The position numbers and the translations under genes were made by a program. 37,350 nucleotides of DNA, from positions 1-37,350 of the forward strand of contig JAJFFZ010000198.1 of NCBI GenBank assembly GCA_021776395.1, given 5' to 3'. The first letter of the stretch is position 1, and each line of letters starts with the position of its first letter. This DNA is from Hyphococcus sp. Its GTDB lineage: Bacteria > Pseudomonadota > Alphaproteobacteria > Caulobacterales > Parvularculaceae. Below are positions 5,656-25,454 of the stretch, piece after piece. The notes under the pieces are model-generated. The model searched no databases, had not been told where the DNA came from, and was given only the letters and a program-made list of their open reading frames with translations.

Positions 5656-6810
5656 TTATGAGTTTGTATATAGCCGAAAGATCAGTTGGCTGCGTGTATT
5701 GACGCCGACTTTTGAAAAAATCGAACGCAGATGGTTTTCTGTAGTGCGTACACTGATGCATAGCGCGTCTGCTACGTCTTGATTTGACTGCCCGCGTGCG
5801 ATAAGCCGAGCGATGTCTATTTCGCGGTGGGTCAGGCCGGATCGGTCCAGCCGCTGGTCAAGTAAGCCTTCATACCCATCCTGGCAGGTTTTTATGAAAA
5901 ACGTGTTGCCGCCTTTGTCGCGCATATGAAGTTGAACATGCAAGATGAGATCGCCATCTTCATCACCATACCGCCCGGCTCTATTCGGCAGCGCGATGCG
6001 GCGCCCGTTGCGCATGACTTCTGGCGCGCTCCAGTCGGTTTGTTGGCATAGGTTTTCGATTTGCTCCAAAATTGCGTGGCTGCTAGTGCTGTCGACGCAT
6101 CCGTCCTCCCCGGTTAAACCCAATACTAAGCGCCCCCGACGATTGGCGTACAAAACCGAGAAACTCTGGTCGAGAAGAACCACGCCCACATCGCGCGCCG
6201 CAAATTCAAGGCTGTCGACAATCGCGCGTTTTCGTTGCAACGCATTTTCCAGCGTCATGCCATGTAGCGCTGAAAGAAGAGCTGGCGCCGCCTGACGCGC
6301 GCGCCTTAAATCCTGTCTTGAAAATCCGGGCGCATCTGACGGGCGATGAAAGCCAAGCAACGCAACCTGATCGCGATTGCCGAACAGCCGAAAGGCGAGA
6401 ACAAGCACATGATGAATGTGATTAGGACGGAAAAAATCCTGATAATACTCAGTTTGCTTCAGACTTTTATAGTCACAAATGTCGGCAAGGCGGAACAGAT
6501 CAAAGCCGAAACGGGAGATCGATCCCAGCCGGCCGCCTTGACGCATGCCATATCGGAGCACAGGGTCCATCTGGTGAAAATAGGACGTGTACTGGCTATG
6601 CGACTGGTGGGCGACTTTGTGGCAACAATTATGACCGATAGCAAGCTGGTTGCCGCTAAAGTGAAACTGTCTAAAGGATGCGGTTTCAGCCGAGAGATGG
6701 TCTGCGAGCGGTTGAAGAACGCCGCCGGCTACGTCATCAAAGTGCTGACACGCTAAAAGCTTGTGATAGACCTCAAGCGCTCCGTCCTGTTCGAGGGGCG
6801 CCGTCGTCAT
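5656..6810 (-). CDS. LuxR family transcriptional regulator
   Basis: C-terminal LuxR HTH: LTHREIDIARLIARGQSNQDVADALCISVRTTENHLRSIFSKVGVNTRSQL. Confidence 0.92.
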   Translation of the reverse strand: MTTAPLEQDGALEVYHKLLACQHFDDVAGGVLQPLADHLSAETASFRQFHFSGNQLAIGHNCCHKVAHQSHSQYTSYFHQMDPVLRYGMRQGGRLGSISRFGFDLFRLADICDYKSLKQTEYYQDFFRPNHIHHVLVLAFRLFGNRDQVALLGFHRPSDAPGFSRQDLRRARQAAPALLSALHGMTLENALQRKRAIVDSLEFAARDVGVVLLDQSFSVLYANRRGRLVLGLTGEDGCVDSTSSHAILEQIENLCQQTDWSAPEVMRNGRRIALPNRAGRYGDEDGDLILHVQLHMRDKGGNTFFIKTCQDGYEGLLDQRLDRSGLTHREIDIARLIARGQSNQDVADALCISVRTTENHLRSIFSKVGVNTRSQLIFRLYTNS

Positions 6811-7048
6811 GGCAAAACTCTATTTCTATTCAATTTCAACCTACCACCCTCTGACGACTAGGCGCGCCGGATCGTGATCAATGATGCTACAGCAGTTTTG
6901 CGGTGAGCCCAAATGTGCACAGCAAGATAATGGTGTTAACCATACATAAAATCGCAGACTCCGCCCACGGATCGCTGTATTTCATGTATTTATGCGAGAT
7001 TCTGCTAACTTCTATTGCGGTGCGGCAGCTGACGAAAGCGCTATCTCG

Positions 7049-7293: not shown

Positions 7294-8925
7294 TCAGTGT
7301 CTCCCCACCGCACGCGAAACGCTGTTATTTATTTTGGCGGCATCGAAGCTTCGCCATCGCGCTGCGATATGGTGATCGGGGCGAAACAAGTAAAGGCTTC
7401 CTGGCGTCAGATCATAGCGCTTGCGCAGCATATCGTTGCAATCGGTAATGGCGCATTGCGAACCCACGCATTTCACATCGACCGGAACGCCTTCAATGTT
7501 TAGATTAGCAGGAAGGTTGACGCCATCAGGTTCGTATGCAATCGCCGTGAAGCGGTCGCCAATCTCCTCTAGAAACCAGCCAGGTTTTGCATCGTTGGCG
7601 ATCGGCGCATCTTTCGCGGGCGAGCCGGGCGCCAGATCGCATTCAAATCGATCTTCATCGGCTGTATTTAGTGAAGATTCTTTTAGGTGAGCGGGTACAG
7701 ATAGCCGCCCGGAATTTACAAGCGACTGAGCGAATGGGTATTGGCTCGCCAACGCCAAGGTCTGGTCCCGAAGGATGCGGCTGGCTTGTGATTTTGGCGT
7801 GATGAAGTCTGTAGCCCGCGTCGAGTGCAGGAGGTTTTCACGAGCCGCATAAAGGCGCTCGGTCGTATATGTTTTAAGAAGGCTTGGCGCGGCCAGGCCA
7901 TCAAGGACTAATTTTAATTTCCAGCCGAGATTATCCGTATCCTGAATACCTGCATTCCCGCCGCGCGCGCCAAAAGGCGAAACCTGGTGGGCTGCATCGC
8001 CCGCGAAAATGACCCGGCCATGCACATAGTCCGAAAGCGTGCGGCACTGGAAGACGTAAACGCTGACCCAGATGATTTCAAAATCGACGCCATCGCCCAG
8101 CATTGCCCTGATACGCGGTTCGACGCGCTCCGGGCGTTGTTCCTCTTCATTATCGGCGTCCCAACCGAGTTGCAGATCGATACGCCAGACATCATCGGCC
8201 TGGCGGTGCAAAAGCGCTGTCTGGCCGTTGTGGAAGGGCGGCTCGAACCAGAACCAGCGCTCGCTTGGAAAATCTGCCTTCATTTTAACATCGGTGATAA
8301 GGAACTTGTCACGAAACGCCTTGCCGTCAAAAGGCAGGTCAAGCTGCCGGCGCACACCCGAGCGGGCCCCGTCGCAGGCGATCAACCAATCGCAAGTCAT
8401 CTCATAAGGGCCATCCGGCGTATTAATCATCAGCCTTGCATGGTCGTCATGTTGTTCAATCGAGGCGACTTTGTTGCGCCAGCGTACACTGCCGCCAAGC
8501 GCTTCGAGGCGGTCAATAAGATACGTCTCAACATAATATTGCTGAAGGTTGACGAAAGCCGGCATTTTATGGCCATTTTCCGGCAACAAATCGAAACTGT
8601 AGAGCAGCTGATCTTCGTTGAAAACCTTACCCGTCTTCCAGGTAACGCCGTGTTCGACCATAACGTCGCCAACGCCTAGCCGGTCCCAGATCTCAAGCGT
8701 GCGTTTGGCCTGACATATAGAGCGCGAGCCTTCGCTGACCGTATCCGTCCGCTCAAGGACGATGACCGGTATGCCTTTAGATATCAGCTCAATAGCCGTA
8801 GTCAGTCCGACCAGTCCGCCGCCGACGATGATGACGGGGTGGTGCGTCGGTTTCGCGGCGGATTGGTCAGGCGAGAACGCATATCCATAGCGTTTGCGCA
8901 AACCATTGATTTTGTCCGTCGTCAT
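7294..8925 (-). CDS. FAD-dependent aromatic monooxygenase-type oxidoreductase (UbiH/PheA/TfdB-like)
   Basis: PVIIVGGGLVGLTTAIEL FAD motif, DWLIACDGARSGVR, GRVIFAGDAAHQVSPFGARGGNAGIQDTDNLGWKL. Confidence 0.92.
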   Translation of the reverse strand: MTTDKINGLRKRYGYAFSPDQSAAKPTHHPVIIVGGGLVGLTTAIELISKGIPVIVLERTDTVSEGSRSICQAKRTLEIWDRLGVGDVMVEHGVTWKTGKVFNEDQLLYSFDLLPENGHKMPAFVNLQQYYVETYLIDRLEALGGSVRWRNKVASIEQHDDHARLMINTPDGPYEMTCDWLIACDGARSGVRRQLDLPFDGKAFRDKFLITDVKMKADFPSERWFWFEPPFHNGQTALLHRQADDVWRIDLQLGWDADNEEEQRPERVEPRIRAMLGDGVDFEIIWVSVYVFQCRTLSDYVHGRVIFAGDAAHQVSPFGARGGNAGIQDTDNLGWKLKLVLDGLAAPSLLKTYTTERLYAARENLLHSTRATDFITPKSQASRILRDQTLALASQYPFAQSLVNSGRLSVPAHLKESSLNTADEDRFECDLAPGSPAKDAPIANDAKPGWFLEEIGDRFTAIAYEPDGVNLPANLNIEGVPVDVKCVGSQCAITDCNDMLRKRYDLTPGSLYLFRPDHHIAARWRSFDAAKINNSVSRAVGRH

Positions 8926-9884
8926 GCGTCAACCTGTTCGAGCTGCTCCCACATTTTTCGATCACGTTCATCGGTCCAAATACGCGGATCTCGGATGCCT
9001 TGCGCTTCATCAAAGGCGCGGGTGACGTCAAAAGGCAGGCAATGGTCAAAGATCACCCAATGGCCATATTTTTTCTCCAGCTCGGCATGGGTCTGTTTAT
9101 AGATCGCGTGCAGGTCTTTGCCGTCCGCAGCGCCTGCCTTGACCGCTTCAAACATGTCGCAAATAAATCCGCGCGTGCCGGTAATGCCCGCCTTCACCGC
9201 TTCCGGCGTCATCAATGCGTCGCCGCGACCCGGCACGATGGCTTTTGCGCCCAGCGCTTCCAGATTGTCGAGGGTCTGCGGCCAGTCGGTGAGATAAGCA
9301 TCGCCCGTGTAAGGCGTGGCGCCATACTCGACGAGGTCGCCCGCGAACAAAACTTTCTGTTCCGGCAGCCACACGACGGTGTCGCCCTTGGTGTGGCCGC
9401 GGCCAAGTTGCATCAGCTTGACCTCAAGCGCACCCATCCTGAGCGTCATTTCCCCCTTGAAGGTGAGGCTCGGCCAGGTCAGGCCGGGCACCGATTCAAC
9501 TCCCGGGAAGAGGCGGGGGAAGCGCCCAATTTCTGAGGCCATGTCCTGCTCGCCGCGCTCGATAATCAGGTCATAAGTGTCCTGGCTGGAGATGATTTGA
9601 TCGGCGCCATAGGCCGAAGCGCCAAGCACGCGCACCGCGTGATAATGAGTGAGAACGACATACTTCACCGGTTTATCCGTAACCGTCCTAATTTTCGCAA
9701 TGACGTCTTCAGCCATTGCGGGCGTCGCCTGGGTGTCGATCACCATAACCCCATCATCGCCGATGATAATACCGGTGTTCGGATCGCCCTCCGCCGTATA
9801 AGCGTAAGCCCGCCCCGGCGACAATTCAGCGAAGGTAATTTTCTTGACTTCCAAGTCCGCCTGCGAGGCGAATGCTTTTGACAT
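8922..9884 (-). CDS. MBL-fold metallo-hydrolase-like protein
   Basis: GIIIGDDGVMVIDTQATPAMAEDVIAKIRTVTDKPVKYVVLTHYHAVRVLGAS...GRGHTKGDTVVWLPEQKVLFAGDLV. Confidence 0.88.
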   Translation of the reverse strand: MSKAFASQADLEVKKITFAELSPGRAYAYTAEGDPNTGIIIGDDGVMVIDTQATPAMAEDVIAKIRTVTDKPVKYVVLTHYHAVRVLGASAYGADQIISSQDTYDLIIERGEQDMASEIGRFPRLFPGVESVPGLTWPSLTFKGEMTLRMGALEVKLMQLGRGHTKGDTVVWLPEQKVLFAGDLVEYGATPYTGDAYLTDWPQTLDNLEALGAKAIVPGRGDALMTPEAVKAGITGTRGFICDMFEAVKAGAADGKDLHAIYKQTHAELEKKYGHWVIFDHCLPFDVTRAFDEAQGIRDPRIWTDERDRKMWEQLEQVDA

Positions 9885-9902: not shown

Positions 9903-10439
9903 TTAGCTCGGGAAATCGGAGAGATGCGCCAGGTGACCGGCTGCACCTGCCGCGTCGGCCATCTCATACATCGCGCGCGCATCAACAATGCCCTCTATAT
10001 TGCCCTCTTCGTCGTAACCGACGATGGGGCCGTATGCGATGGCGAACATGATCGTGCCTTTGGGCGAGTCCGGTTGATGGCGCGTCATCGCTTCCTCGTA
10101 GAAATAACTGCCGGCGCCGCCGCGGTCGTCGTCATAGCCGAACTCGCCTTCAAGGACATAGCCTTCAACGGCGCCTAGATGGCCATGAACCGGTGCGTCA
10201 TTGCGGGCGTCGACCTTGAGCAGCATGGTGAAGCCGCCGGTCTTTTTGTCGATGTTCAGTAGTTTGAAATGTGTCCCATCCATCACCCAGGGCGTCCATG
10301 GCATTTCGGCGGCGTTGAAAAACGCCGGACGCACCTGCAATAATGTTCCGAGTTTTGTATGCCCGACCTTCGGAGCCTCTTGTCCATCCATGATCTGAAA
10401 TCCCTTCTGAGTGAATGTTGCCGGTTTAAATTCGACCAT
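9903..10439 (-). CDS. Cupin-domain protein (2,4'-dihydroxyacetophenone dioxygenase-like family); true start may be 10391
   Basis: Cupin core GGFTMLLKVDARNDAPVHGHLGAVEGYVLEGEFGYDDDRGGAGSYFYEEAMTRHQPDSPKGTIMFAI. Confidence 0.75.
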   Translation of the reverse strand: MVEFKPATFTQKGFQIMDGQEAPKVGHTKLGTLLQVRPAFFNAAEMPWTPWVMDGTHFKLLNIDKKTGGFTMLLKVDARNDAPVHGHLGAVEGYVLEGEFGYDDDRGGAGSYFYEEAMTRHQPDSPKGTIMFAIAYGPIVGYDEEGNIEGIVDARAMYEMADAAGAAGHLAHLSDFPS

Positions 10440-10581
10440 AAACTGTCAAGGGTAAAGCTACACGGGACGCCAAGCCCTGAAATGACGGATTCCACCTAGA
10501 TATTCCCTCTACGTCTGCGTTTCGGACCCAAAGCTCAGATGCGCAGGCCTCAAGCGACCGCCCTTCGCCTGGTCTGAGCAG

Positions 10582-10602
10582 TTTCCGCTATTGGCGCGGA
10601 AA
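10582..10602 (+). promoter_or_regulatory. Shared cluster motif, site 1 (TTTCCGCTATTGGCGCGGAAA)
   Basis: TTTCCGC-N7-GCGGAAA inverted repeat in the divergent cupin/phytanoyl-dioxygenase promoter region. Confidence 0.7.
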
Positions 10603-10665
10603 GACATCTCTCGCTATTATGCGCCTCGGCGGTCACACTGCAGACTATCGCGTCGGAGCCAACAC

Positions 10666-11532
10666 ATGCCGGACAACACACTCCCCCATAAACTGGAAAA
10701 GACCATATCCGGCGAAGATATCGCCGCCTATAACCGCGATGGCGCTATCGTTGTCCGTGACGCCATTCCGATGGCGTGGATAAAGCTGATGAGGCGCGCA
10801 ATCCAAACCATCATGGACCGTCCCGGCGACGCTGCCGTTGAATATACGCCCAAAGGCGAGGCCGGCCGTTACTATGGCGATTTTTTTATCTGGCGGCGCA
10901 ATGACGATTTCCGCACCTTTATGCAGGACTCGCCATTAGCGGAGGTAGCAGCGACAATCATGGGCGCCCGTGAAATGCATTTTTTCTACGATCAGCTTCT
11001 GGTCAAGGAACCCGGCACCAAGGAGGAAACACCCTGGCATCAGGATCTTCCCTATTGGCCTTTGCGCGGTGAACAGATTATTTCCATCTGGGTTCCGTTC
11101 GATTCCGCCAGCGCCGACTCCGGCGTTGTGCACTACCTTAAAGGGTCGCATAAATGGGGCAAAATGTTTGCACCCAATTCATTCGCAAGCGATAGCGGTT
11201 TTGGCGATATCTATAAAAAAGCGGGGCTTGAACCGCTTCCTGAAAATCTTGCCCGCGACCACAAACATGATGTCATACATTGGGATGTTGAACCCGGCGA
11301 CATTATTATTCATCATCCGTTGACCCTTCACTTCGCGCCGGGAAACGCTTCCCAGACCGGTCGTCGCAGAGGACTTGCGTTACGGTATGTTGGCGACGAT
11401 GCTGTGTTCGACGACAGACCTGGCACATTTATAGACAATCCACGCCTGAAAGCGAGCCTGCCCATGATCTCGCTTAAAGATGGAGAACCGCTCTGCGGCG
11501 ATCTTTTCCCGAAGGTGTGGCCGAGACCTTAA
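10666..11532 (+). CDS. Phytanoyl-CoA dioxygenase family protein
   Basis: ATG at 10666 (within ORF 10591-11532); ETPWHQDLPYWPLRGEQIISIWVPFDSASADSGVVHYLKGSHKW...EPGDIIIHHPLTLHFAPGN (HxD...H Fe ligands). Confidence 0.92.
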   Translation: MPDNTLPHKLEKTISGEDIAAYNRDGAIVVRDAIPMAWIKLMRRAIQTIMDRPGDAAVEYTPKGEAGRYYGDFFIWRRNDDFRTFMQDSPLAEVAATIMGAREMHFFYDQLLVKEPGTKEETPWHQDLPYWPLRGEQIISIWVPFDSASADSGVVHYLKGSHKWGKMFAPNSFASDSGFGDIYKKAGLEPLPENLARDHKHDVIHWDVEPGDIIIHHPLTLHFAPGNASQTGRRRGLALRYVGDDAVFDDRPGTFIDNPRLKASLPMISLKDGEPLCGDLFPKVWPRP

Positions 11533-11572
11533 GGCGTTCGGCAAAGGGCTGGTAGCAGATCCGCGCTATCAC

Positions 11573-11593
11573 GCATTGTTTTCCAATGCTTTT
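11573..11593 (+). terminator. Hairpin GCATTG-ttttc-CAATGC followed by TTTT
   Basis: 6-bp perfect stem downstream of the phytanoyl dioxygenase stop, followed by a short T run. Confidence 0.3.
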
Positions 11594-11619
11594 ACACGCC
11601 TATAACGCCATATAGGTGT

Positions 11620-11640
11620 TTTCCGCTATTGGTTGGAAAA
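11620..11640 (+). promoter_or_regulatory. Shared cluster motif, site 2 (TTTCCGCTATTGGTTGGAAAA)
   Basis: First 13 nt identical to site 1; TTTTCC/GGAAAA arms; upstream of SDR. Confidence 0.7.
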
Positions 11641-11704
11641 GGTCTGTCTGACTACGGTCAATCTCAAGGAGCTATATCCCGATATATCACGCCGGAGGTT
11701 CACT

Positions 11705-12487
11705 ATGGCAAGCAGGCTTGAAGGCAAAGCTGCAATCGTTACAGGCGGCGCTTCCGGCATCGGCCGTGCGACATGCAAGCTGTTCGCGCAAGAAGGGGCA
11801 AACGTTATTGTCGCCGATCTCGATATGGATGGAGCGCAAGCTACAGTCGAGGCTATCGGCGCGGCTGCTTGTCCTTACACGCTTGATGTGACGAAAGAAG
11901 AAGCGTGGGAAGGCCTTATGGCTGGCGGCCTTGGCGTAGGTGGAAATCTGGACATTCTTGTCAATTGCGCCGGCATTGGCCGGGCCGGAGATTTTGAAGA
12001 GCTGTCGCTTGAGGACTGGAACGCCATGGTTGCGGTTAACCTGACCGGCGTATTTCTTGGCTGCAAACATGGCGTCAGGGCCATGCGGCAAGCAGGCAAT
12101 GGCGGCTCCATCGTCAATATCTCCTCAATCGCCGGCCTTGTCGGCGGTGACGACATTGCAGGCTATAGCGCCACCAAAGGCGGCGTGACGATGCTGACGA
12201 AGTCGGTTGCTTTGCATGGCGCGCGGTTCGGCATTCGCTGCAACAGCGTTCATCCAACCTATGTGGATTCAGAAATGCTGGACCCGGTTGCAGAAGCATT
12301 TCCTGATCGCGAAACCATGCTGGCGGGAATGGCGAAGCTGGTGCCGCTTGGCCGCGTTGCGACGCCGCAAGATATTGCCAACGCCATCCTTTTTCTCGCC
12401 TCCGACGAGGCCGCCATCGTCACAGGCTCAGCGCTTCTCGCCGATGGCGGTCAGTTGGCGGGCTTGCCGAGTGCGCATACCGGTTAG
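11705..12487 (+). CDS. SDR family oxidoreductase
   Basis: ATG at 11705 (within ORF 11633-12487); AAIVTGGASGIGRATCKL, NCAGIG, YSATKGG. Confidence 0.95.
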   Translation: MASRLEGKAAIVTGGASGIGRATCKLFAQEGANVIVADLDMDGAQATVEAIGAAACPYTLDVTKEEAWEGLMAGGLGVGGNLDILVNCAGIGRAGDFEELSLEDWNAMVAVNLTGVFLGCKHGVRAMRQAGNGGSIVNISSIAGLVGGDDIAGYSATKGGVTMLTKSVALHGARFGIRCNSVHPTYVDSEMLDPVAEAFPDRETMLAGMAKLVPLGRVATPQDIANAILFLASDEAAIVTGSALLADGGQLAGLPSAHTG

Positions 12488-12530
12488 CTAAGGGTGTTCT
12501 ATGCAGCGGCTTTAGAAAGGACGAGGTTCA

Positions 12531-14177
12531 TTGACAATATACGGACTGATGCAGGAAACGCCGCTGATGATTTCGTCGCTGCTAGACTATGCGGCGTCCT
12601 ATCACGGCAAACGGGAAATCATTACGCGCACGGTCGAAGGGCCGATCCATCGCTACACCTATGCTGATGCGCGAGCGCGCGCTGCACAAGCGGCCAATAC
12701 GCTCGTCAAGCTTGAGGTCTCGCCCGGCGACCGCATTGCAACCCTCGCCTGGAATACGCATCGACATTTTGAGTTGTTTTACGCCGTCTCTGGTCTCGGC
12801 GCCGTCCTCCACACAATCAATCCACGCTTGTTTGAAGAACAGATACGCTACATCGTCAACCATGCTGAAGACCGTGTGATATTCCTTGATCTGAATTTCG
12901 TAGAGCTGGCGGAAAAGCTGGTTGATAGATTCCCAACAGTAGAGCATTACGTCATATTGACTGACCGCAGCCATATGCCGGAAACGTCTTTGCCTAATGC
13001 GCTATGTTACGAAGACCTGATCGCAGACGAATCTACAACTTTTAAGTGGCCGGAATTTGACGAAAATACCGCATCGTCATTGTGTTACACCTCCGGTACG
13101 ACGGGCAATCCCAAAGGCGTTCTTTACAGCCATCGCTCGACGGTTATTCATGCGCTTGGCGCAGCGCAGAAAGGCGCTCTCGATCTTGGATGCGCCGATA
13201 CAATCCTGCCGATCGCGCCAATGTATCACGCCAACGCCTGGGCGATGCCTTACATTGCGCCCATGGTCGGCGCCAAGCTTGTTCTTCCGGGACCGAAGAT
13301 GGATGCGCCAAGCATCCTTGAGCTGATTAATAGCGAACAGGTTACTTTCGCCTGCGCCGTGCCTACCGTATGGACCATGGTGCTGGAGCATTTGCAGGCA
13401 ACGGGCGGTCGCATAGACAGTCTCAAACGCACCACCATCGGCGGGTCTGCGGTTCCACAATCGATGATGGATATTTTTCGCGAAGAATATGGCGTCACGG
13501 TCTTGCATCTGTGGGGCATGACGGAAACCAGCCCCATGGGTACGGTGGCGACACAAACCCCTGATGTCGCCGCCCTCCCACAGAAAGAAAAGCACAACCA
13601 ACTCGCCAAGCAGGGCCGCGTTCAATACGGCATCAACATCAAGATCATCGACAAGTCCGGTGCGCTTGCGCCGCGCGATGGCGAGACATCGGGCGATCTG
13701 TGGATTAAAGGCCCATGGGCTGCGCGCTGTTATTACAAGCGCGAAGATGTGGCTCCGCTCGACGCCGACGGATGGTTTCCAACCGGTGATGTCGCGACCT
13801 GGGACGCATACGGATATATGAAAATCACTGACCGTACGAAAGATGTGATCAAGTCTGGCGGAGAATGGATCAGTTCCATTGAATTGGAAAACGCCGCCGC
13901 CGGCCATCCGCAGGTCCGTCAGGCCGCCGTTATCGGCATTTATCATCCCAAGTGGGAGGAACGCCCGCTGATGCTCATCGTGCCGACTAAGGCCGCAGCG
14001 CCTACAAAACAGGAAATTCTTGATTTCCTCAGCGCGAAGTTCGCAAAATGGCAGTTGCCTGAGGACGTCCTTTTTCTCGATGAGTTGCCGCTTACGGCCA
14101 CCGGAAAAATCATGAAGACGGCGCTGCGGGAGATGTATAAGGACTTCTCTTTTTCTGGTGACAGCGGGCCGTCGTAA
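12531..14177 (+). CDS. Long/medium-chain acyl-CoA ligase (AMP-binding)
   Basis: [76 protein letters not shown] start at 12531. Confidence 0.95.
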
Positions 14178-14190
14178 TTTTATTGGCGGC

Positions 14191-15144
14191 CTAACTCGAC
14201 AAGGCCGCTTTGATGCGATCAGCCACCAGTGCAAGGCCCTCCTTGCCTGCATCTATGCCTCCGGAAAATGACATAAAGCCATGTATGGTGGTCTCGAAAC
14301 ATTTGTGTTCAACAGGCGCGCCGGCGGCGGCTAAGCGATCCGCATAGGCCTTTCCTTCATCACACAAAGGATCGTAGCCGGCAGTGATGACCAAGGCCGG
14401 GGGCAAACCGCTTAAATCTTCTGTCAGAATAGGAGAAATGCGCGGGTCGCTCGCCAATGTATGCTGGTCGAGGTAGTTCCCTTTCAACCACACAACATCT
14501 TTTCTGCCAATAAAGTACTCGCCGCCGCCAAAGCTAGTGCGCGAGGCGTATTTATCATTTGCATCATCGGTAAGATCGACAGCCGGATAAACAAGCGCCT
14601 GAAAAGCGATCATGGGTCCGCCCCGCGCTTTAGCCAGTTGACACATAACCGCACTAAGATTGCCGCCAGCGCTATCACCAGTAACGGCAATGCGGCTGGC
14701 GTCGCCGCCGATTTCTGCTGCATGCGCGCCCACCCACTCCAGCGCCGCGTAACAATCATCAACGCCAGCGGGAAATTTGTGTTCCGGCGCCAGGCGATAA
14801 TCGACATTGATGACGATGACGCCAGCATTGGCGCAATAATAACGGCAAACATTTTCATGCGTGTCCATATCGCCTAAAGTCCAGCCGCCGCCGTGATAGA
14901 GTAGAAGAACGGGCAAAGCGTCCGCCGTCGCATCAGGCCAGTAAATCCGTATAGGAATCTCCCCATTGGGGCCTGGAATGGTGCGTTCTTCAACCTTGGC
15001 CACGGGCGTTTTCGGCGCATCGACCGCGATTGTCATCTCTTTCAATGCGCGGCGAGCCTCGGGCGCCGGCATTTCATGGAGCGCAGGCGCCCCCGATTCC
15101 GCGCCTTGCGCTAAAATGGCGGCTGTTTGTTTGTCTACGGTCAT
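14191..15144 (-). CDS. Alpha/beta hydrolase (hormone-sensitive-lipase-like esterase)
   Basis: LLYHGGGWTLGD (HGGG), VTGDSAGGNLSAV (GDSAGG), VDYRLAPEHKFPA. Confidence 0.95.
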   Translation of the reverse strand: MTVDKQTAAILAQGAESGAPALHEMPAPEARRALKEMTIAVDAPKTPVAKVEERTIPGPNGEIPIRIYWPDATADALPVLLLYHGGGWTLGDMDTHENVCRYYCANAGVIVINVDYRLAPEHKFPAGVDDCYAALEWVGAHAAEIGGDASRIAVTGDSAGGNLSAVMCQLAKARGGPMIAFQALVYPAVDLTDDANDKYASRTSFGGGEYFIGRKDVVWLKGNYLDQHTLASDPRISPILTEDLSGLPPALVITAGYDPLCDEGKAYADRLAAAGAPVEHKCFETTIHGFMSFSGGIDAGKEGLALVADRIKAALSS

Positions 15145-15232
15145 GGCTGGAGTCCCTTCAGATTCAGTAACAGCGATCCTTCGCAGTCAGGTCGAGAACG
15201 TCACAAAATTTTGCGCATGCTCTCTGGTCGCA

Positions 15233-15895
15233 TCACTCGCCGCCCGGTTTTTTGTCGAGAAAAATTTGTACATACATCACGCCAGCCATATCGCCCTCGG
15301 GTGTTAATCCCCGCAAGTCCACTTTTTCGACAAACGTACCTGTCGCGCCGGCATAAAGGCCAGTCCCGCCGACGATAACCCCGCGGCCCGACGGATGAGG
15401 CCCAACGGAGACCTGAGCGGGGAGGGAGCCTGTCCACGCCTCTCCGCCGGCGACTGTTTCGAAAGCCGGCAGATGCGCCGCCGGGATGCGTTCGTTTTCA
15501 TGCATAAATAATGTGCCTTGCGGCGTTGTGACCGTCCAGTCGGTCTTCCAAGTCATGTCGGGGCGTATCCCATTTGCATCGGGGAAAATTTCAAGTTCAC
15601 TGGCCAGGCCAACAAGATTTCCGTCCCTGTCGCGAATGCGTCCGGTAAAGGCGAGCATGTCGCTGATGGTAGAATTTTCGAGCGTTGTAATGGCGTCAGG
15701 CATAGGCCCAATGCCGCCGGCAAATCCGTGGGTCAGGGATAAAACATCCCCCGGCAGTTCTATGGAATATTCTATGAAGCTAGCCTCTTCGGCAGGAGCT
15801 GCTGGCGCGGGCTTGCTGAATAAAAATACGCCGCTTATGCCGAGCGTCACCCCAGTTATCATCACAGGTAGCGTTTTTTTCATCTTCTGCTCCAC
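15233..15895 (-). CDS. Secreted/anchored allene-oxide-cyclase-barrel-like protein
   Basis: N-terminal hydrophobic signal (PVMITGVTLGISGVFLF); IVGGTGLYAGATGTFVEKVDL resembles AOC/dirigent barrel repeats. Confidence 0.5.
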   Translation of the reverse strand: MEQKMKKTLPVMITGVTLGISGVFLFSKPAPAAPAEEASFIEYSIELPGDVLSLTHGFAGGIGPMPDAITTLENSTISDMLAFTGRIRDRDGNLVGLASELEIFPDANGIRPDMTWKTDWTVTTPQGTLFMHENERIPAAHLPAFETVAGGEAWTGSLPAQVSVGPHPSGRGVIVGGTGLYAGATGTFVEKVDLRGLTPEGDMAGVMYVQIFLDKKPGGE

Positions 15896-15931
15896 AGTTT
15901 ATGCATATGGCTCAAGCCATAATAGTGTAAT

Positions 15932-16480
15932 TTAGGGACGCCGGATCGGATCCGCGCCGTCCCAGTCTTGCGACTGAGCGCGGATACCGGAGAACAAACC
16001 TTCCACATCATCGCTTAACTCAATAATTTCGATCATCCCGCGCAATGGCGCCATGGTGTCGATATAGGCGAACCGTTTACCACCTACCGGCACAACCTCT
16101 CCATAGAAGGCGACTTTGTGACCATTGGCTTTGTGTCGCGCGACATCGGCATCAAAATTTTCTGTCGATACCGCCCAGTGGTGAAAGCAACCCATGCGGT
16201 CCGTTTTGACGCAATCTGCATATACGGACGGAACGTCATTATGCTGAAAGATTAACTCAAAGCACATGGACCCGGAATAAGCCAGCGCGATAGACAGATC
16301 GATATCTGTGGGGTCGTCATAATATTTCATATTCTCCGCCGGAAAGTGCTCCATGATCATCCACGGGCCAACATTGAGATTTTTGACCCATTCCATTGCA
16401 GCCGCTTCCAGATCGTCAACGACATAGGCGACCTGCATGATCGCCCCCAACGGTTGACCGAATTTACACATGCGCGTCAT
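15932..16480 (-). CDS. VOC (glyoxalase/bleomycin-resistance) family protein
   Basis: Start MTRMCKF at 16480 (within ORF 15932-16696); IMQVAYVVDDLEAAAMEWVKNLNVGPW, CFHHWAVSTENFD, IEIIEL. Confidence 0.8.
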   Translation of the reverse strand: MTRMCKFGQPLGAIMQVAYVVDDLEAAAMEWVKNLNVGPWMIMEHFPAENMKYYDDPTDIDLSIALAYSGSMCFELIFQHNDVPSVYADCVKTDRMGCFHHWAVSTENFDADVARHKANGHKVAFYGEVVPVGGKRFAYIDTMAPLRGMIEIIELSDDVEGLFSGIRAQSQDWDGADPIRRP

Positions 16481-16508
16481 GGCGCCTCCTTTTCTATATG
16501 CCGAAACG

Positions 16509-17306
16509 TCAATTCGTAAGCTGCATGCCGCCATCGACAACCATTTGCTCGCCGGTGATATGCCGCGCTTCATCGCTGGCGAGAAACAACGCAGCGTTGG
16601 CGATATCAAGTGTCTGGCCAAACTCACCCATGGGTATGCGTGATAAAAAGTCAGCGCGCACCGCCTCTTCCGGGGCGCCCGCGGCGGTTGCAACATCGCG
16701 GATTAAACCGTCATGCATCGGCGTTGTGATCTGTCCTGGGTGAATGGTGTTGCAGCGAATTTTATGACCGTTCTGTGCGCAATGCAGGGCGATTGATTTT
16801 GACAATTGCAGCACTGCGGCCTTGCTGGCGCCATAGGCGGTGATGAAAGGCGTCGGCGCTAGCGCGGCGATCGAGGAGAGATTGATGATCGATCCGCCGC
16901 CAGTTTCCGCCATGACCGGGATCGCTGCGCGGCAGCCCAGAAACACGCCTTCCGCATTGACCCGAAAAATTCGCCGCCAGTCATAAAGTGTGGTGTCTTC
17001 AGGCGAATTGCCTTTCGCCAAATCGCCAAGTCCGGCATTGTTGACGAGCACATCAAGCCCGTCGAACTTCGCGCGCATCTCGTTCATTAGCTTTGGCCAT
17101 GAAGCTTCGTCGCCGACATCCTGTTTCATAAAATCGGCGCCCAGGCCTTTGGCCGCATCTAGGCCTGCGCTTTCGTCAATATCAGTGAGCAAAACCGATG
17201 CGCCTTCTTCGAGAAATCGCTCGACAATAGCGTAGCCGATGCCTTTGGCACCGCCGGTGACAAGAGTGCGTTTACCGTGTAGCCGTCCAGAAGCAATCGC
17301 CGCCAT
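16509..17306 (-). CDS. SDR family oxidoreductase
   Basis: TLVTGGAKGIGYAIVERF, NNAGLG, YGASKAAV. Confidence 0.95.
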   Translation of the reverse strand: MAAIASGRLHGKRTLVTGGAKGIGYAIVERFLEEGASVLLTDIDESAGLDAAKGLGADFMKQDVGDEASWPKLMNEMRAKFDGLDVLVNNAGLGDLAKGNSPEDTTLYDWRRIFRVNAEGVFLGCRAAIPVMAETGGGSIINLSSIAALAPTPFITAYGASKAAVLQLSKSIALHCAQNGHKIRCNTIHPGQITTPMHDGLIRDVATAAGAPEEAVRADFLSRIPMGEFGQTLDIANAALFLASDEARHITGEQMVVDGGMQLTN

Positions 17307-17363
17307 TTTATTTCCCTAGTAGAGCGTCAAGAAAAACATTCTCAGTCTGAAATCGGCCGCAGT

Positions 17364-18134
17364 CTACGGCCCATTCGTCACGCTTTCCACGACCTCGTTC
17401 AAGTCACGCATCAGCACAGGTTTTATCTTATCCGTCCAGCGCGCGTATCCGGTCTCATTTAAATGCAACCCATCAAAGATAAATACGTCATCCTTCAACG
17501 CGCCGCTATCATCAAGAATTGTATCTGATATGTCGATGAAATTAACGCCTTCATCCGTGTCTGAATATGCTGAAATAAGAGCGTTGGCGTCGCGCATGCC
17601 GGGCCAGCTTTTCCAGCGCAGTTTCGACGGCTTTATAGATACGTAGTAAATTGGCGTATCTGGCAGCTTGGCGCGCATGACGGATACGAACTCTTTAAAG
17701 TCTTTATAAACATCATTAGCGCTGCTTGGCTCGAAACCGGCAAAATTATTGTCGCCCGCGTAGAGAACAATCGCGGCAGGTTGGTATGGAAAAATGATGC
17801 GATCAGCGTAATACGTCACATGTGATAGATTGGAGCCGCCAAATCCACGATTCAAAACCGGCAGCGGCGCCATATCTTCTGCTAAAGAGCTCCAAAAACG
17901 AAAACTCGAGCTACCAACAAACAGAACTTGTCCTAACGCAGGCGGATATTCCGCATCTTGGGTTTCAAATTTAACAATCTCAGATTCCCAAAACTCTGGC
18001 TTCGGTTGGTTTTTTACAAAATAGTATCCGAAACTGACGCCGCCCGCGACGACAAGAACAATCAGCGCTGCAATGGCGAGTCCCGTTTTTTGCAACCATC
18101 CCAACCCGCCAAGAAACGAAAATATCTTTGTCAT
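17364..18134 (-). CDS. Membrane-anchored SGNH/GDSL-type hydrolase
   Basis: N-terminal TM segment; VLFVGSSSFRFW (block I, GSS variant), YAGDNNF (block III), FDGLHLNETGY (block V). Confidence 0.85.
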   Translation of the reverse strand: MTKIFSFLGGLGWLQKTGLAIAALIVLVVAGGVSFGYYFVKNQPKPEFWESEIVKFETQDAEYPPALGQVLFVGSSSFRFWSSLAEDMAPLPVLNRGFGGSNLSHVTYYADRIIFPYQPAAIVLYAGDNNFAGFEPSSANDVYKDFKEFVSVMRAKLPDTPIYYVSIKPSKLRWKSWPGMRDANALISAYSDTDEGVNFIDISDTILDDSGALKDDVFIFDGLHLNETGYARWTDKIKPVLMRDLNEVVESVTNGP

Positions 18135-18287
18135 TCCGAATTATCCAATAAAAGAACAGCGTTACATGGCGAGAAATTGCATTGCATTGGCGTTTTGGGA
18201 TAGTAACATTATATACTGTCGCCGTTAAAACGATCGCCCCCGCCACGCACCGCAAACGGCCGTGACGGGAAGGCGCGATTTCTTAAC

Positions 18288-20717
18288 TTAAAACGTTTTC
18301 TTGACGCTAGCCCCCCATTCGCGCGGCCGGCTGAAGAACCCTTCCTCAGTGCCAAAACTCGTGAGCGCCGACAGGCCACTCTCGACAAAACGTTCGTCGG
18401 TGATGTTGGTCATAAAGACGGCTAGTTCCCAGCCATTGTCCGGGTCTTCAAAAGCGATGCGTGCATTAACGATGGAATGAGCGCGTTGTTTGATTGCTTG
18501 TGAATTTTGAACATTCGGGAAATTTTCGCTGCGATAGGTCCAATCACCCCGGATACTCAGATTTCCGTAATCTTGCACCGGCACGGTGTATTGGGCGCTA
18601 AGGCTGCCGGTCAGCTCCGGCGCTTTGGGTAAAGCGGCGCTAAGGCCCGGAATGCCGGCGCCGGCAATGGCGGAGGCTTCCAACCTGGTATATTCGAGGT
18701 CGATATATCCAAGACTGCCGCTAATATTGAGCCCTTCGATGGGGTGGGCTTCAATTTCGGCTTCCACGCCCCAGGCTTGCGCATCGCCGCCGTTGATGAC
18801 GATAAGCGCCAAAGCGCCAAACGCATCGGTCGCCACGCTGGTCAGCTGCAAATCTTTATAATCATAATAGAATACAGCTCCATTGAGGCGCAGCCGGTGA
18901 TCCCACCAATCGGACTTTAGACCGCCTTCTACAGAGAAAATGAACTCTGGGTCATAAGAGCCTATCGAACCATCGTTTATCGGCCGTCCGTTAAACCCGC
19001 CGGACTTAAAGCCGCGCGACGCTTTTGCATAGACCAACATATCGTCTGTCAGCTGATAATCAGCAGTGCCTTCATATGTCACCGCCGTCCAATCATCGTT
19101 GACGGTTTCCATAAAGACAATCGGCGCTAGACTAGCTACCTTGAAATGGTTCGAAAAATAATCTTTCTTCTCGTATGTCAGACGCGCGCCACCGGTGAGA
19201 CTCAGTTTATCGGTGACATCGAATGTGCCTTGGGTGAAGGCGGCATAAGACGTGATGTCAATTTCATTGAAAACATCAAAATCAAGATCTAGGGCGACAT
19301 TGATCGGATTGCCTGGCCCGCCTGGCGCCGTCGGCATCGCCAGGGGTGATCCGTCAATAGGTCCGGGCAGGGCTTCAAACGCTCCGAACAGGCCGGATGT
19401 TAACACCACATCATTGTCATCGCGGCCAAATTCGTTGAAATAAAAGCCGCCGACGACCCAATTCAGGCGATCATCGAAACTGGCGCCGATGATCTGGATT
19501 TCCTGGCTGATTTGATTTTGGTCCTGGGCCTGGTTTGTTTCGACGATCGGCAGAGGGGAGCCGTCGCCGTCACGGCCGAACAAAGCTTCCATTTCGCGGT
19601 ACGCGGTGATGGATTTAACCGTCACCGGCCCCGCATCCCATTCAGCGGTCAGATTAACGCCCCAGGCCGTCAAATTACTGTTGTTGGGACCGGTGCCGAA
19701 GCTAACATCGGGATCGCCAGAAATGTAGCGTCCGTCAAAGGGTGTGCCGGCGGGGCCGCCGATCAAAGCGTTCCAAAGGGCAATGGGCGCACCGCCCAGA
19801 GGGTCAGCATTGAGCAGCACCGTTGGCACCGATTGCTCACGCACCCGGCTGTAATCGCCAATCAGATCGAAAGTGATGTCCTCGTCCGGTACATAACGCA
19901 ACGCTATGCGTCCCGCGGCTTCGTTTTCATTGCCTGTTTTGTCGATCAATTCGCCTGTGGTGAAATCGAGCCGCCGGCCATTACCGTCACGATTCTTGGA
20001 TGAGAACGATACTTTGGCGAATAATTTGTCCTCGACAACAGGGAATTCAAATGAGCCTCGGCCATCGATACGATTAAATTTTCCAGTAATTAATTCGGCA
20101 TAGCCACCCGTTTCGCCGGTTGGTTTGGAGGAAATGATATTGACCGCACCGCCGATCGTGTTCTTCCCGAACAGCGTGCCCTGCGGCCCGCGCAAAATTT
20201 CCACCCGTTCGAGATCAAGCAGGTCCATCACCCCGCCGAGGGTTCGGGGGTGATAAACACCGTCAATATAAATTCCTACACCCGGGTCGGTGGTGAACAA
20301 AAAGTCTGTCTGACCGATACCGCGAATGTAAATTTGGGCGTTCGTGCCGCCGCCGCTGCCGCCAGCGGCTGCCGCCATGTTGACGTTGGGCGCAAACGAC
20401 CCAACTTCCATCAAATTGGTAAGGCCCCGCTCAAGTAGCGACTCGCCAGTGAATGCTGTGATCGCAATTGGCACCGTTTGCAGATTCTCTTCGCGCTTTC
20501 GCGCCGTCACGGTGATCGTGTCAACGGCCGCACTTCTAGAGCCTTGGCTCGTTGTTTCAGCGCCGGCGCCAGCTTCCTGCGCCCCGCTTTGCGATGCGGT
20601 GAGGCTTAATATGGCGGCCAACGCTGCCATGGTCGCCAGATGAACACCCTTTGCATTAATTCCCCAGCTTTGACGATGCGCCAATTCACTAGCCGCCCCA
20701 CGTCCAAATTCACTCAT
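18288..20717 (-). CDS. TonB-dependent receptor
   Basis: Start MSEFGRG at 20717 (within ORF 18288-20819); ITVTARKREENLQTVPIAITAFTGE plug/TonB-box region, GPQGTLFGKNTIGGAVNIISSKP, C-terminal F. Confidence 0.95.
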   Translation of the reverse strand: MSEFGRGAASELAHRQSWGINAKGVHLATMAALAAILSLTASQSGAQEAGAGAETTSQGSRSAAVDTITVTARKREENLQTVPIAITAFTGESLLERGLTNLMEVGSFAPNVNMAAAAGGSGGGTNAQIYIRGIGQTDFLFTTDPGVGIYIDGVYHPRTLGGVMDLLDLERVEILRGPQGTLFGKNTIGGAVNIISSKPTGETGGYAELITGKFNRIDGRGSFEFPVVEDKLFAKVSFSSKNRDGNGRRLDFTTGELIDKTGNENEAAGRIALRYVPDEDITFDLIGDYSRVREQSVPTVLLNADPLGGAPIALWNALIGGPAGTPFDGRYISGDPDVSFGTGPNNSNLTAWGVNLTAEWDAGPVTVKSITAYREMEALFGRDGDGSPLPIVETNQAQDQNQISQEIQIIGASFDDRLNWVVGGFYFNEFGRDDNDVVLTSGLFGAFEALPGPIDGSPLAMPTAPGGPGNPINVALDLDFDVFNEIDITSYAAFTQGTFDVTDKLSLTGGARLTYEKKDYFSNHFKVASLAPIVFMETVNDDWTAVTYEGTADYQLTDDMLVYAKASRGFKSGGFNGRPINDGSIGSYDPEFIFSVEGGLKSDWWDHRLRLNGAVFYYDYKDLQLTSVATDAFGALALIVINGGDAQAWGVEAEIEAHPIEGLNISGSLGYIDLEYTRLEASAIAGAGIPGLSAALPKAPELTGSLSAQYTVPVQDYGNLSIRGDWTYRSENFPNVQNSQAIKQRAHSIVNARIAFEDPDNGWELAVFMTNITDERFVESGLSALTSFGTEEGFFSRPREWGASVKKTF

Positions 20718-20790
20718 GACGCACTCCCTGTTTGCGTTTTGCTTTTTGATCCCCATGGTCAAAGCCACACGCCATTTGGCCAAAATGCCG

Positions 20791-20811
20791 CAGGCGCCGC
20801 TATAGCGGAAA
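20791..20811 (-). promoter_or_regulatory. Shared cluster motif, site 3 (TTTCCGCTATAGCGGCGCCTG on - strand)
   Basis: First 10 nt identical to sites 1 and 2; contains perfect 12-bp palindrome CCGCTATAGCGG (20797-20808); upstream of the TonB receptor. Confidence 0.65.
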
Positions 20812-21001
20812 CCACTCAAATTCCAATGGTGCGGGCTTTCCTCAGCGTGGAGGAGTAGGTATTACATCGCTCGCTTGCCGTGAGGTATCGTGTTTTTCTT
20901 CCAACATCAGCCTTAAACGCGCGACGGGCAAGTCAACTGGCGGCGTCACCAAAGATAAACGCTTGTAATTTCGCATTCGGCCTCGGAAACCTTCGCGCTC
21001 G

Positions 21002-21831: not shown

Positions 21832-22161
21832 ATGGCTCAATCACTTGGAACCGTAACCAAACGCGAGACCGGCGGATTTGAAGGCACGCTCGCGATGATG
21901 ACCCTCACAACCCGGATCACCATCGTGCCGAATGATGCGAAAGAAAACGATCGCCAGCCCGATTTCCGCATCTACGCAGCGCGCGGCGGCGAAATCGGCG
22001 GCGGCTGGAACCGTGTCGGCAAGAATTCCGGCAAGGCATATGTCTCGCTCACTTTCGCTCATCCCGCATTCGGTCCAGCAAAGCTGTTCGCCAATTTGGC
22101 GAGGACCGCGGGCCAAGACAACGACAATGTTCTCGCGATCCTGTGGAACCCGCATAACTGA
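21832..22161 (+). CDS. DUF736 family protein
   Basis: NDRQPDFRIYAARGGEIGGGWNRVGKNSGKAYVSLTFAHPAFGPAKLFANL; conserved DUF736 pattern of conjugative elements. Confidence 0.88.
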   Translation: MAQSLGTVTKRETGGFEGTLAMMTLTTRITIVPNDAKENDRQPDFRIYAARGGEIGGGWNRVGKNSGKAYVSLTFAHPAFGPAKLFANLARTAGQDNDNVLAILWNPHN

Positions 22162-22182
22162 CCCGCGTTTCAATACCACGAT

Positions 22183-22216
22183 GCCCGCGCGAGATTTTTC
22201 TCGTGCGGGCTTTCTT
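22183..22216 (+). terminator. Rho-independent-like terminator after DUF736 gene
   Basis: GCCCGCGCGAGA-tttt-TCTCGTGCGGGC 12-bp stem (one G-T), then TTTCTT. Confidence 0.7.
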
Positions 22217-22395
22217 TGCGAGCGGGAATTCGCCGCGACGTTAACAGTAAAACTCGATCGCGGCAGAAGAGCGGCGTAAGTTTTCTGTAAGAAATCATCA
22301 GATGCAGCTGCAATTATTTGCCGAAGGTGAAACTGTTTTTGGTTAATGGCGCCAATAAGTTGGCGGGACTTGCTCTTTCTCACATCAAACTGTAT

Positions 22396-22427
22396 AAAAA
22401 CTATGGTTTAGTTATAAAAAAACTATG
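22396..22427. promoter_or_regulatory. Paired direct repeat AAAAACTATG, 22 bp apart
   Basis: AAAAACTATG at 22396-22405 and 22418-22427 in an AT-rich promoter-like region upstream of the HTH gene. Confidence 0.5.
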
Positions 22428-22448
22428 ATATAATTATGTGCTGACCAT

Positions 22449-22751
22449 ATGGAGGGGTTTTCGGCGGCTGCAAGAAGGGCTGGTCGCCGCTCAACATGGG
22501 GGATTGAGGTGGGTGAGTGTCGCGTAACGACGCCCAAGATTGAAAGTCCGTATCTGACGGTTGCGGAAGCCGCAGCTTATTTGCGTATTTCGGTGCGAAC
22601 GCTTGAATCTTCCCGGCAACAGAAAATCGGGCCCGCCTATCACAAGCATGGGGGCCGTGTTGTTTACCTCAAAGAAGATCTCGACGTCTGGTCGCGGCTA
22701 GTGCGCTTCGATTACAGCGGCGCTAGCGTCGCTGAAGAGGCGCGGCCATGA
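22449..22751 (+). CDS. Excisionase/AlpA-type helix-turn-helix protein (actual start may be internal)
   Basis: SPYLTVAEAAAYLRISVRTLESSRQQKIGPAYHKHGGRVVYLKEDLDVW. Confidence 0.82.
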   Translation: MEGFSAAARRAGRRSTWGIEVGECRVTTPKIESPYLTVAEAAAYLRISVRTLESSRQQKIGPAYHKHGGRVVYLKEDLDVWSRLVRFDYSGASVAEEARP

Positions 22752-23254
22752 AGTTAGAGGCCCGTCTTCCTCTTTTACTTGCCGCCGCAGCGATAGCGGC
22801 GCTTACTGTTGCCATTATTGTCGAATTTCCACCAAGAATTGTCTGGAATGGATCAAAAAGTGCGCCGCGCGGCGTCTATATCCTTCGCCAATTGCCGCTA
22901 GAACATGGGCGATTTGTCCTCGTAAATCCGCCGCCGGCGATGAAGAAATTCATCGAACGCCGGGGCTATCTGCCTCCGGATACGCCGCTGATCAAACGCG
23001 TGAGAGGTCTTCCCGGCGATGAGGTTTGTCGTGAGGGCGATAGGATTTTTATCAACAAAATCCATGTTGCAACGGCGTTAAAGGCCGACTCAATGGGGCG
23101 CGACATGCCTCACTGGTCTGGCTGTTTTACGCTTCAGGAAGACGAGATTTTTCTTCTCAATGAGCATGAAAAGTCCCTCGATGGACGATATTTCAGGACT
23201 GTGAAGCGCTGGCGCGTCATCGGGACCGCTTATCCCTTATGGACCAGGAAATGA
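22748..23254 (+). CDS. traF: S26 family signal peptidase / conjugal transfer protein TraF
   Basis: N-terminal TM, NGSKSAPRGVYIL (Ser region), LIKRVRGLPGDEV (Lys region), DGRYF. Confidence 0.88.
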   Translation: MKLEARLPLLLAAAAIAALTVAIIVEFPPRIVWNGSKSAPRGVYILRQLPLEHGRFVLVNPPPAMKKFIERRGYLPPDTPLIKRVRGLPGDEVCREGDRIFINKIHVATALKADSMGRDMPHWSGCFTLQEDEIFLLNEHEKSLDGRYFRTVKRWRVIGTAYPLWTRK

Positions 23255-23428
23255 CCTTGGCGGGAGTGGCGCGCATCATGGTATTTGAGAAATCGACTGT
23301 ATACGGAGGAGAGAAGACAGCGAAGGCAAGATTAAAGCAGTGGTGCAAGCACCACCTGCAAGCCTGTCTGCACATCTCGTTTTTATGCACCATAAGTGCT
23401 ATGTGTAGTGCAAAAAAGTGTAGGGCCA

Positions 23429-25402
23429 ATGGCGGGGTCTAAGGATGACTTCCGTCCACGATTGGGCCGCATGCGCGCGGCGGGCGGCGCTGCGTCAAAG
23501 CGCTATCTCGGCAAGCTCTATGCGACGATGGAAAGAACTCGCCCTGGCGTCTTCGCCAAGTGGTCTGGCGCACGGTTTACCGGCGCACGGATTGGGCGCG
23601 GGGCGGGGCTCGGCGCCGCCTTCGCATCGCGTTATCCTTTCGCGGGCTTTCGAGCCCGCCGTGTCGCCGTCAAAATTCGCTCGGTGAGATTGGGCGGCAA
23701 TGGCCTCGCAAAAGCGCAGGCCCATCTTCGATATCTGCAACGCGATGGCGCCCAAAAAGACAAGGATGGAGAGAAGATTCCAGGAAAACTCTATGGGCGT
23801 GATTGTGAGGAGATCGACGGCAAAGAGTTTTTAAAGGAAGGCAAAGGCGACCGTCATCAATTCAGGATCATCCTGTCACCCGAAGACGCGAGCGAGCTCA
23901 CCGATCTCAGTTCTTTCACGCGCGACGTCATGGCGGCGGCGGAGAAGGATTTGGGCACGAAGCTCGACTGGGTGGCGGTCAATCACTTTGATACTGACCA
24001 CCCGCATGTCCATGTTGTTTTACGTGGCAAAGCAGATGACGGAAAAGACCTTGTCATCGCCCGTAATTACATCACTCATGGCTTCCGAAAACGTGCGAGC
24101 GAGATTGCGACTCTGGAGCTCGGCCAGCGCCGCGATATCGAGATCGCCAGAAGCCGCTACGCGGAGGTTGATAAAGAACGCTTTACCAGCCTTGATCATG
24201 AGCTTGCCGTGATCGCAAAAGACGGCGCCATCGCTTTTGAAAAACCCCGCGCGCCCTATGAGCGTTTTCGCGTAAAGCTATTGATGGCGCGGTTACAGAC
24301 ATTGGAGAAAATGACTCTCGCGCGGCGAGACAAGTCCGGATGGCATTTGTCCGAGAGACATGAACCGGCGCTCAAAGCCATGGGCCGGCGCGGCGACATC
24401 ATCCGCTCCATGGCCGATGCGATAAGCGAGGGGTTTGGCCCTTTGACTTTTCGTGAGTTCGGATCAGAAACCTTGCCTGCAAAACTCATCGGCCGCATTG
24501 TGGGAATGGGCGCTGCAGATGACGCCCATGACAAACGTTTTTTGGCGCTGGGCGGCATAGACGGCAATCAATGGCATGTAGCGGTTGATATTGAGCCTGG
24601 CGCCATGCCACCGGAAAGCGCCATTGTTGAGGTAACGAGGGGCAATGCGACGCCTAAGAAATCTGATCTTGTGATTGCAGCGATCGCCGATCGCAATGAT
24701 GGTGTCTATTCGGACGATTTGCATGGCGCCACTGATCCATCCGCGAGCGCTGAATATCGCCTCGCTCATAAGCGGCGACTGGAGGCGTTACGCCGCGCCG
24801 GAATTGTTGAGCGAAAGAGCGACGGGTCATGGTTGATCCCACATGACTATCGGGAGCGCGCCAGTCAATTTGAATCTGGTCGTTCTGCGTCGCGTATCAA
24901 GGTGCTTTCCTGGGTCAGCATCGAACAGCTGCCAGAGGCGAGGGCGCAAATCTTTATCGATGATGTTTTGGAGCGCCATGAAAAGCTGGACGCCGTCGAT
25001 CATAAATTCGGCGGTGAATTGAATGCCGCTATCGCTGCTCGGCGGCGCTGGTTATTGTCGCAAGGATTGGCGAGGGAAACTGGTGATAGTTTTACCATTG
25101 ATCGAGCTAGTCTGTACGCTATAGAGCGCAAGGCGATGAATGAGACCGCTGCGATGATTGCAAAACAAAGTGGTAAGGCGTTTACGTCTGCCAATGAAGG
25201 TGAGCACGTCACCGGCGTCTATCATCGTCCGGCCGATCTGCCGTCAGGCCGGTTCGCCATCATCGAGAAATCGAAACAATTCACACTGGTTCCGTGGCGC
25301 GCAGCGCTTGAAAAACGGCGCGGCATGGAGGTCTCCGGCGTGATGAAGCACGGCGGCGTATCCTGGACCTTTGGGAAACCCCGAAGTGGGCCGGGGCGAT
25401 AA
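23429..25402 (+). CDS. VirD2-type relaxase with DUF3363-like C-terminal region
   Basis: Start MAGSKDDFRPR at 23429 (within ORF 23396-25402); HFDTDHPHVHVV relaxase His motif; RSVRLGGNGLAKAQAHLRYLQRDG. Confidence 0.93.
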   Translation: MAGSKDDFRPRLGRMRAAGGAASKRYLGKLYATMERTRPGVFAKWSGARFTGARIGRGAGLGAAFASRYPFAGFRARRVAVKIRSVRLGGNGLAKAQAHLRYLQRDGAQKDKDGEKIPGKLYGRDCEEIDGKEFLKEGKGDRHQFRIILSPEDASELTDLSSFTRDVMAAAEKDLGTKLDWVAVNHFDTDHPHVHVVLRGKADDGKDLVIARNYITHGFRKRASEIATLELGQRRDIEIARSRYAEVDKERFTSLDHELAVIAKDGAIAFEKPRAPYERFRVKLLMARLQTLEKMTLARRDKSGWHLSERHEPALKAMGRRGDIIRSMADAISEGFGPLTFREFGSETLPAKLIGRIVGMGAADDAHDKRFLALGGIDGNQWHVAVDIEPGAMPPESAIVEVTRGNATPKKSDLVIAAIADRNDGVYSDDLHGATDPSASAEYRLAHKRRLEALRRAGIVERKSDGSWLIPHDYRERASQFESGRSASRIKVLSWVSIEQLPEARAQIFIDDVLERHEKLDAVDHKFGGELNAAIAARRRWLLSQGLARETGDSFTIDRASLYAIERKAMNETAAMIAKQSGKAFTSANEGEHVTGVYHRPADLPSGRFAIIEKSKQFTLVPWRAALEKRRGMEVSGVMKHGGVSWTFGKPRSGPGR

Positions 25403-25454
25403 AGTCTCACGCTCTGCAGTTCGATGAGATCAATGCCATGTCCAAGAATACTTA

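Follow-up and report, generated by a model that had tools for sequence, protein, structure and literature searches.

A catabolic gene cluster of marine alphaproteobacteria carries three copies of a 25-bp box that sequence comparison identifies as a conserved operator, and the three boxes are very probably operators of the LuxR-type regulator encoded within the same cluster (5656-6810), which is predicted to activate in the class II manner. The stretch of DNA that was analysed (the window) is 37,350 nucleotides long and constitutes one whole contig (C110) of a MAG of 3.0 Mb that is 83% complete. The cluster has a minus-strand part with the order LuxR – DUF2783 – FAD monooxygenase – MBL – cupin, a plus-strand part encoding PhyH, SDR1 and an acyl-CoA ligase, and a second minus-strand part in which the TonB receptor is followed on the same strand by a GDSL hydrolase, SDR2, a VOC protein, orf15233 and an HSL-type esterase. 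The FAD enzyme resembles aromatic/polyketide hydroxylases. The regulator, the boxes and the genes nearest to them are:

5656-6810, minus strand: LuxR-type regulator of 384 aa, with a C-terminal GerE HTH (325-377) and an N-terminal GAF/PAS-like sensor region
7294-8925, minus strand: FAD_binding_3 monooxygenase (NF006002 above its cut-off)
8922-9884, minus strand: metallo-beta-lactamase-fold (MBL) hydrolase
9903-10439, minus strand: cupin, with a ChrR cupin-like domain only
10571-10595, plus strand: box 1, GGTCTGAGCAGTTTCCGCTATTGGC, upstream of PhyH (10666), between PhyH and the divergent cupin-MBL-FAD-DUF2783-LuxR genes
10666-11532, plus strand: phytanoyl-CoA dioxygenase family protein (PhyH), candidate target of box 1
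11609-11633, plus strand: box 2, CATATAGGTGTTTTCCGCTATTGGT, upstream of SDR1 (11705)
11705-12487, plus strand: SDR oxidoreductase (SDR1), candidate target of box 2, followed by the acyl-CoA ligase (12531-14177)
18288-20717, minus strand: TonB-dependent receptor, candidate target of box 3
20798-20822, minus strand: box 3, AATTTGAGTGGTTTCCGCTATAGCG, upstream of the TonB receptor (start 20717)

The window contains three exact copies of TTTCCGCTAT, at 10582-10591 and 11620-11629 on the plus strand and at 20811-20802 on the minus strand, and no fourth exact copy. They precede the PhyH, SDR and TonB-receptor genes, at the positions and on the strands reported in a first-pass annotation of this DNA, and the spacings that it gave between 21-bp sites and start codons (63, 64 and 73 nt) also hold, for the ATG codons at 10666, 11705 and 20717. 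The 21-bp frame itself is misplaced: the conserved part consists of TTTMCGCTATTGG together with 11 bp upstream, and the 3′ parts of the 21-bp sites (GCGGAAA, TTGGAAAA and GCGCCTG) are not common to the three. A 21-bp inverted repeat that can be drawn from sites 1 and 2 (TTTCC...GGAAA) was rejected, being absent at site 3 and at the TonB promoters of relatives. The count of TTTCCGCTAT in the window is not significant by itself and was set aside as proof, because 271 different 10-mers are present at least three times (about 126 in simulation, 98-156). TTTCCGCTAT is the only one of them with every copy intergenic, for which the simulation mean is 0.5.

TTTCCGCTAT forms the core of the 25-bp box, AAwTTGAGTRnTTTMCGCTATTGGC. 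A matrix trained solely on the TonB promoters of other genomes – with the window and L065 sites excluded from training, and sites 1 and 2 having no part in its making – recovers three of the three window sites, with p values of 9e-10, 1.6e-8 and 8e-11 for sites 1, 2 and 3, and E values per window of 7e-5, 1e-3 and 6e-6, respectively. Pattern searches of the own genome returned zero-mismatch matches to TNRGNRNTTTMCGCTATNG at the three window sites only, such that full box matches are confined to them; a motif scattered through the genome, which would have spoken against the first-pass reading, is not what is seen. The best extra-cluster matrix match among the fetched own-genome loci (C221:5962) lies in frame within a small CDS and was taken as chance, as was a partial match in another genome (TTTCCGCTATGGC, L053/G028) with a low matrix score (8.1).

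TonB-receptor homologues were sought across 398 genomes of the order, and the box was looked for upstream of the best matches. In 12 related clusters, all in marine bacterial genomes, it precedes the TonB orthologue at a similar distance to the gene; where the start is clear, the first base of the box TTT triplet is ~74-94 nt ahead of it. These 12 include JAJFIU010000059 (L044; TonB 53%), in which AATTTGAGTGnTTTCCGCTATnGC survives between TonB and LuxR within upstream DNA that has otherwise diverged. Absence from orthologous clusters, the other outcome that would have spoken against the first-pass reading, is thus not seen for the TonB site (present in 12 clusters) or the SDR site (in three); site 1 is missing in the nearest orthologous cluster. 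That cluster, in JAADIH010000011 (L039, genome G026), is complete, encodes a PhyH 85% identical to that of the window, and retains the SDR1 and TonB sites. The SDR1-orthologue site is also kept in L035 and is degenerate in L083, and genome G041 has two additional weaker boxes, one before SDR1 and one before an orf15233-like gene. For site 1 the matrix score is the whole of the comparative support. PhyH was discarded as a conserved target: its homologues occur in plasmids and in Emcibacter-like MAGs, and the MAG loci have neither the cluster nor the box.

Within the catabolic cluster of the window, a DNA-binding domain was detected in the LuxR protein alone. Its GerE domain (residues 325-377) scores 50.4 bits against a Pfam cut-off of 23.5, which places it among the LuxR/GerE transcription factors. 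Pfam detects no receiver domain in its N-terminus, the mark of the NarL/FixJ response-regulator subclass, and no autoinducer-binding domain, that of the autoinducer-binding subclass; its NCBIfam response-regulator matches cover the C-terminal HTH region only. The recognition helix, SxRTxENHLR, is present in all 12 aligned LuxR homologues, with overall identity as low as 22%. AlphaFold gives a model of moderate quality (pLDDT 79, pTM 0.60), and in Foldseek its N-terminal part resembles the ligand-binding domains of LuxR receptors and GAF/PAS proteins, suggesting that the protein may sense a small molecule through this region. Quorum-sensing-type LuxR receptors (RhlR, SdiA, CepR2 and VqsR) are among the Foldseek matches, which comprise full receptors and the ligand domains of VqsR and CepR2 (TM by target 0.67-0.69). 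The window protein differs from these receptors in its low identity to them (10-17%), its lack of an autoinducer-binding Pfam match and the catabolic genes around it; the resemblance in fold therefore does not imply that the ligand is an acyl-homoserine lactone.

LuxR/GerE-type activators (the lux-box class, FixJ, NarL and TraR) bind dyads centred near -42. The system described here is like them in having a C-terminal GerE HTH, a box over the predicted -35 and a regulator gene in or beside the target cluster. It differs from them in its imperfect dyad, TTGAGTA-N3-TACGCTA, and in an N-terminus that has no match to a receiver or an autoinducer-binding family in Pfam. The box is not known to resemble their sites in sequence. 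A promoter is predicted at each of the three boxes:

10591-10620, plus strand: predicted promoter TTGGCG-18-TATTAT from a consensus scan, with its -35 overlapping the 3′ end of box 1
11629-11658, plus strand: predicted weak promoter TTGGTT-18-TACGGT, overlapping box 2
20774-20802, minus strand: predicted weak promoter TAGCGG-17-CCAAAT, overlapping box 3

At its 3′ end the box forms a poor -35 (TTGGCG, TTGGTT or TAGCGG), with a -10-like hexamer 17-18 bp further on at most sites, and five relatives have TTGGCG-17-TCAAAT at the TonB promoter. This predicted placement puts the box centre near -43, and ~-43 is the usual site position in class II activation by GerE-type proteins. A GerE dimer would be expected to bind a dyad. 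The best centre is between TTGAGTA and TACGCTA, and the symmetry there is weak: 13 of 500 column shuffles reach it in one clade and 84 of 500 when all TonB sites are taken, with a range of 13-170 of 500 according to the data set. In several TonB promoters (L084-L090) a second conserved block, GGTCAAATTGnCGCA, lies ~30 bp downstream of the box TTT; it is read here as the -10 region, though it is conserved beyond what a -10 needs.

From these features we infer binding by LuxR, activation, a ligand and the promoters, as follows. The GAF/PAS-like N-terminal region of LuxR would sense a small molecule – the substrate or a pathway intermediate – and a LuxR dimer would bind the box through its GerE domain and activate transcription in a class II manner. 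LuxR is predicted to act on the operon of the TonB receptor (uptake), on the SDR-ligase operon and on PhyH; the cupin-MBL-FAD-DUF2783-LuxR operon, divergent from PhyH, could be a further target, which would result in positive autoregulation. Such autoregulation is likely, because LuxR is the last gene of the cupin operon facing box 1 in the window, in most relatives (L084-L090) the box is flanked by a TonB operon and a divergent cupin operon on whose side LuxR is found, and in L044 it is flanked by TonB and LuxR. The same operator could instead serve a LuxR that represses and is relieved by substrate, since the box overlaps the presumed -35 and a bound protein could block RNA polymerase, and the site 1 promoter (TTGGCG-18-TATTAT) is fairly good. 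We regard repression as rather unlikely, given the box position near -43, the poor match of the -10 and -35 hexamers at the majority of sites, and the activating role that is usual for GerE-domain proteins.

The assignment of the box to LuxR draws on the distribution of the two among genomes. A scan of 398 genomes of the order for exact GAGTRNTTTMCGCTAT, made without reference to genes, gave 11 matches in 11 genomes, and ten of these are TonB promoters of the clusters described here; the eleventh (G184) is within an ORF, and there is no such cluster there. A LuxR profile matches 11 of 358 genomes of the order, namely the ten with the box at the TonB promoter and G088, which has a variant box, TAGGTGTTTCCCGCTAT; because the profile was built from the cluster LuxR proteins, this order-level scan is not fully independent. 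Co-occurrence of box and LuxR in the order has a Fisher p of 1e-17 with phylogeny ignored, and since genomes within an order are related, p-values of this kind overstate independence. Of 385 genomes from across the class, only the window's genome and G597 match the LuxR profile, and the same two alone have the box TTGAGTRNTTTVCGCTAT. Seven TonB homologue loci with no nearby LuxR (L113-L119) lack the box; two of them are second TonB copies, in G120 and G041, genomes with a box elsewhere, and in G041 the LuxR gene is on a different contig, beside cupin-MBL-FAD.

G597, which belongs to another order, has two loci of note. At one of them (L131) a LuxR homologue and the box are found at an unrelated TonB gene (26% identity), the neighbours of which, read from their sequence and not by a family search, look like TRAP-transporter genes; on this comparison regulator and box appear to remain together while the cargo changes. 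The first-pass annotation had named the in-cluster LuxR as the simplest reader of the sites, and this assignment gains computational support from the order and class co-occurrence, from the control loci that lack both, and from L131. The second locus (L130, G597:C39, 369-5131) encodes a TonB receptor 71% identical to that of the window, compared with 58% for the orthologous cluster L036, a PhyH at 49% and a very diverged LuxR (20%), and can be read as a putative mosaic exchange of cluster parts. It has no recognisable box, and its recognition helix is IHTVQNHLR rather than xRTVENHLR, with two changes (R to H and E to Q); helix differences and missing box may together reflect altered specificity in this one case.

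A regulator encoded elsewhere in the genome might read the box as a real operator, with LuxR merely co-travelling with the cluster. Unlinked factors commonly regulate, and the dyad symmetry is weak, but the order and class scans place box and LuxR together in the same genomes, the pair persists at the unrelated TonB gene of L131, and the own genome has no full match outside the cluster, unlike what a global regulator would be expected to show; we consider this reading improbable. More improbable again is that an alternative (ECF-type) sigma factor recognises the box as a core promoter element, as the location of the box immediately upstream of genes at a similar distance, and the resemblance of the cupin to the ChrR cupin domain, might suggest. 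An ECF promoter has two elements, unlike the box, which is one unbroken 25-bp block lying upstream of a distinct -35/-10 pair. The scan of the cluster proteins turned up no sigma factor, and the match of the cupin to ChrR models is confined to their cupin part. Chance recurrence of a 10-mer, for all that so many recur in the window, can be dismissed in view of the conservation of the box over 12 clusters and its near-exclusive genomic distribution: chance is ruled out for sites 2 and 3, and site 1 alone could be non-functional.

The probable operator of the in-cluster LuxR belongs to an ordinary kind of regulatory system, of which the LuxR-box pair is a new member. In the literature searched, neither this box nor this LuxR group came up, no paper on this regulon was found, and DUF2783 had a single, unrelated mention; as far as these searches show, the regulon is undescribed. 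The edc cluster of Novosphingobium tardaugens, a sphingomonad TonB-receptor catabolic cluster, is similar in having divergent catabolic operons, a TonB-dependent receptor and a dedicated regulator, and differs in its enzyme set and in its regulator, which is a putative TetR (PMC7793797). More tentatively, and with the balance slightly against it, LuxR and the 25-bp box may constitute a portable switch that alphaproteobacteria re-use before different TonB-receptor/uptake operons. The regulators would then form an undescribed, substrate-sensing subfamily with an operator class of their own, and the genus of the window may have enlarged its regulon through new boxes at SDR1 and PhyH.

With the box, an uncharacterised LuxR subfamily acquires an operator and a set of targets that can be tested, and a single catabolic regulon of marine alphaproteobacteria would bring together a TonB receptor, two promoter-proximal enzymes and an operon with a flavin monooxygenase. 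The box can be used for finding more targets and, as a reporter promoter, for finding the inducer and hence the substrate of the cluster.

Several other features of the genome are of note. A frameshifted fragment at G000:C198:24589-24869 (L133, about 6590-6980) is 72-86% identical to the C-terminal part of the window LuxR, and lies at a contig end adjoining a transposase-like fragment; it is apparently a decayed second LuxR copy. Two Fic/DOC-domain proteins are encoded on either side of the catabolic cluster (4095-5267 and 25455-26663). The region at 21832-37299 contains genes for a relaxase (DUF3363), a signal peptidase S26, a TraG coupling protein, a T2SSE-type ATPase, TrbL and a CagX-family protein, a trb-type conjugative module directly adjoining the catabolic cluster, which suggests a mobile element.
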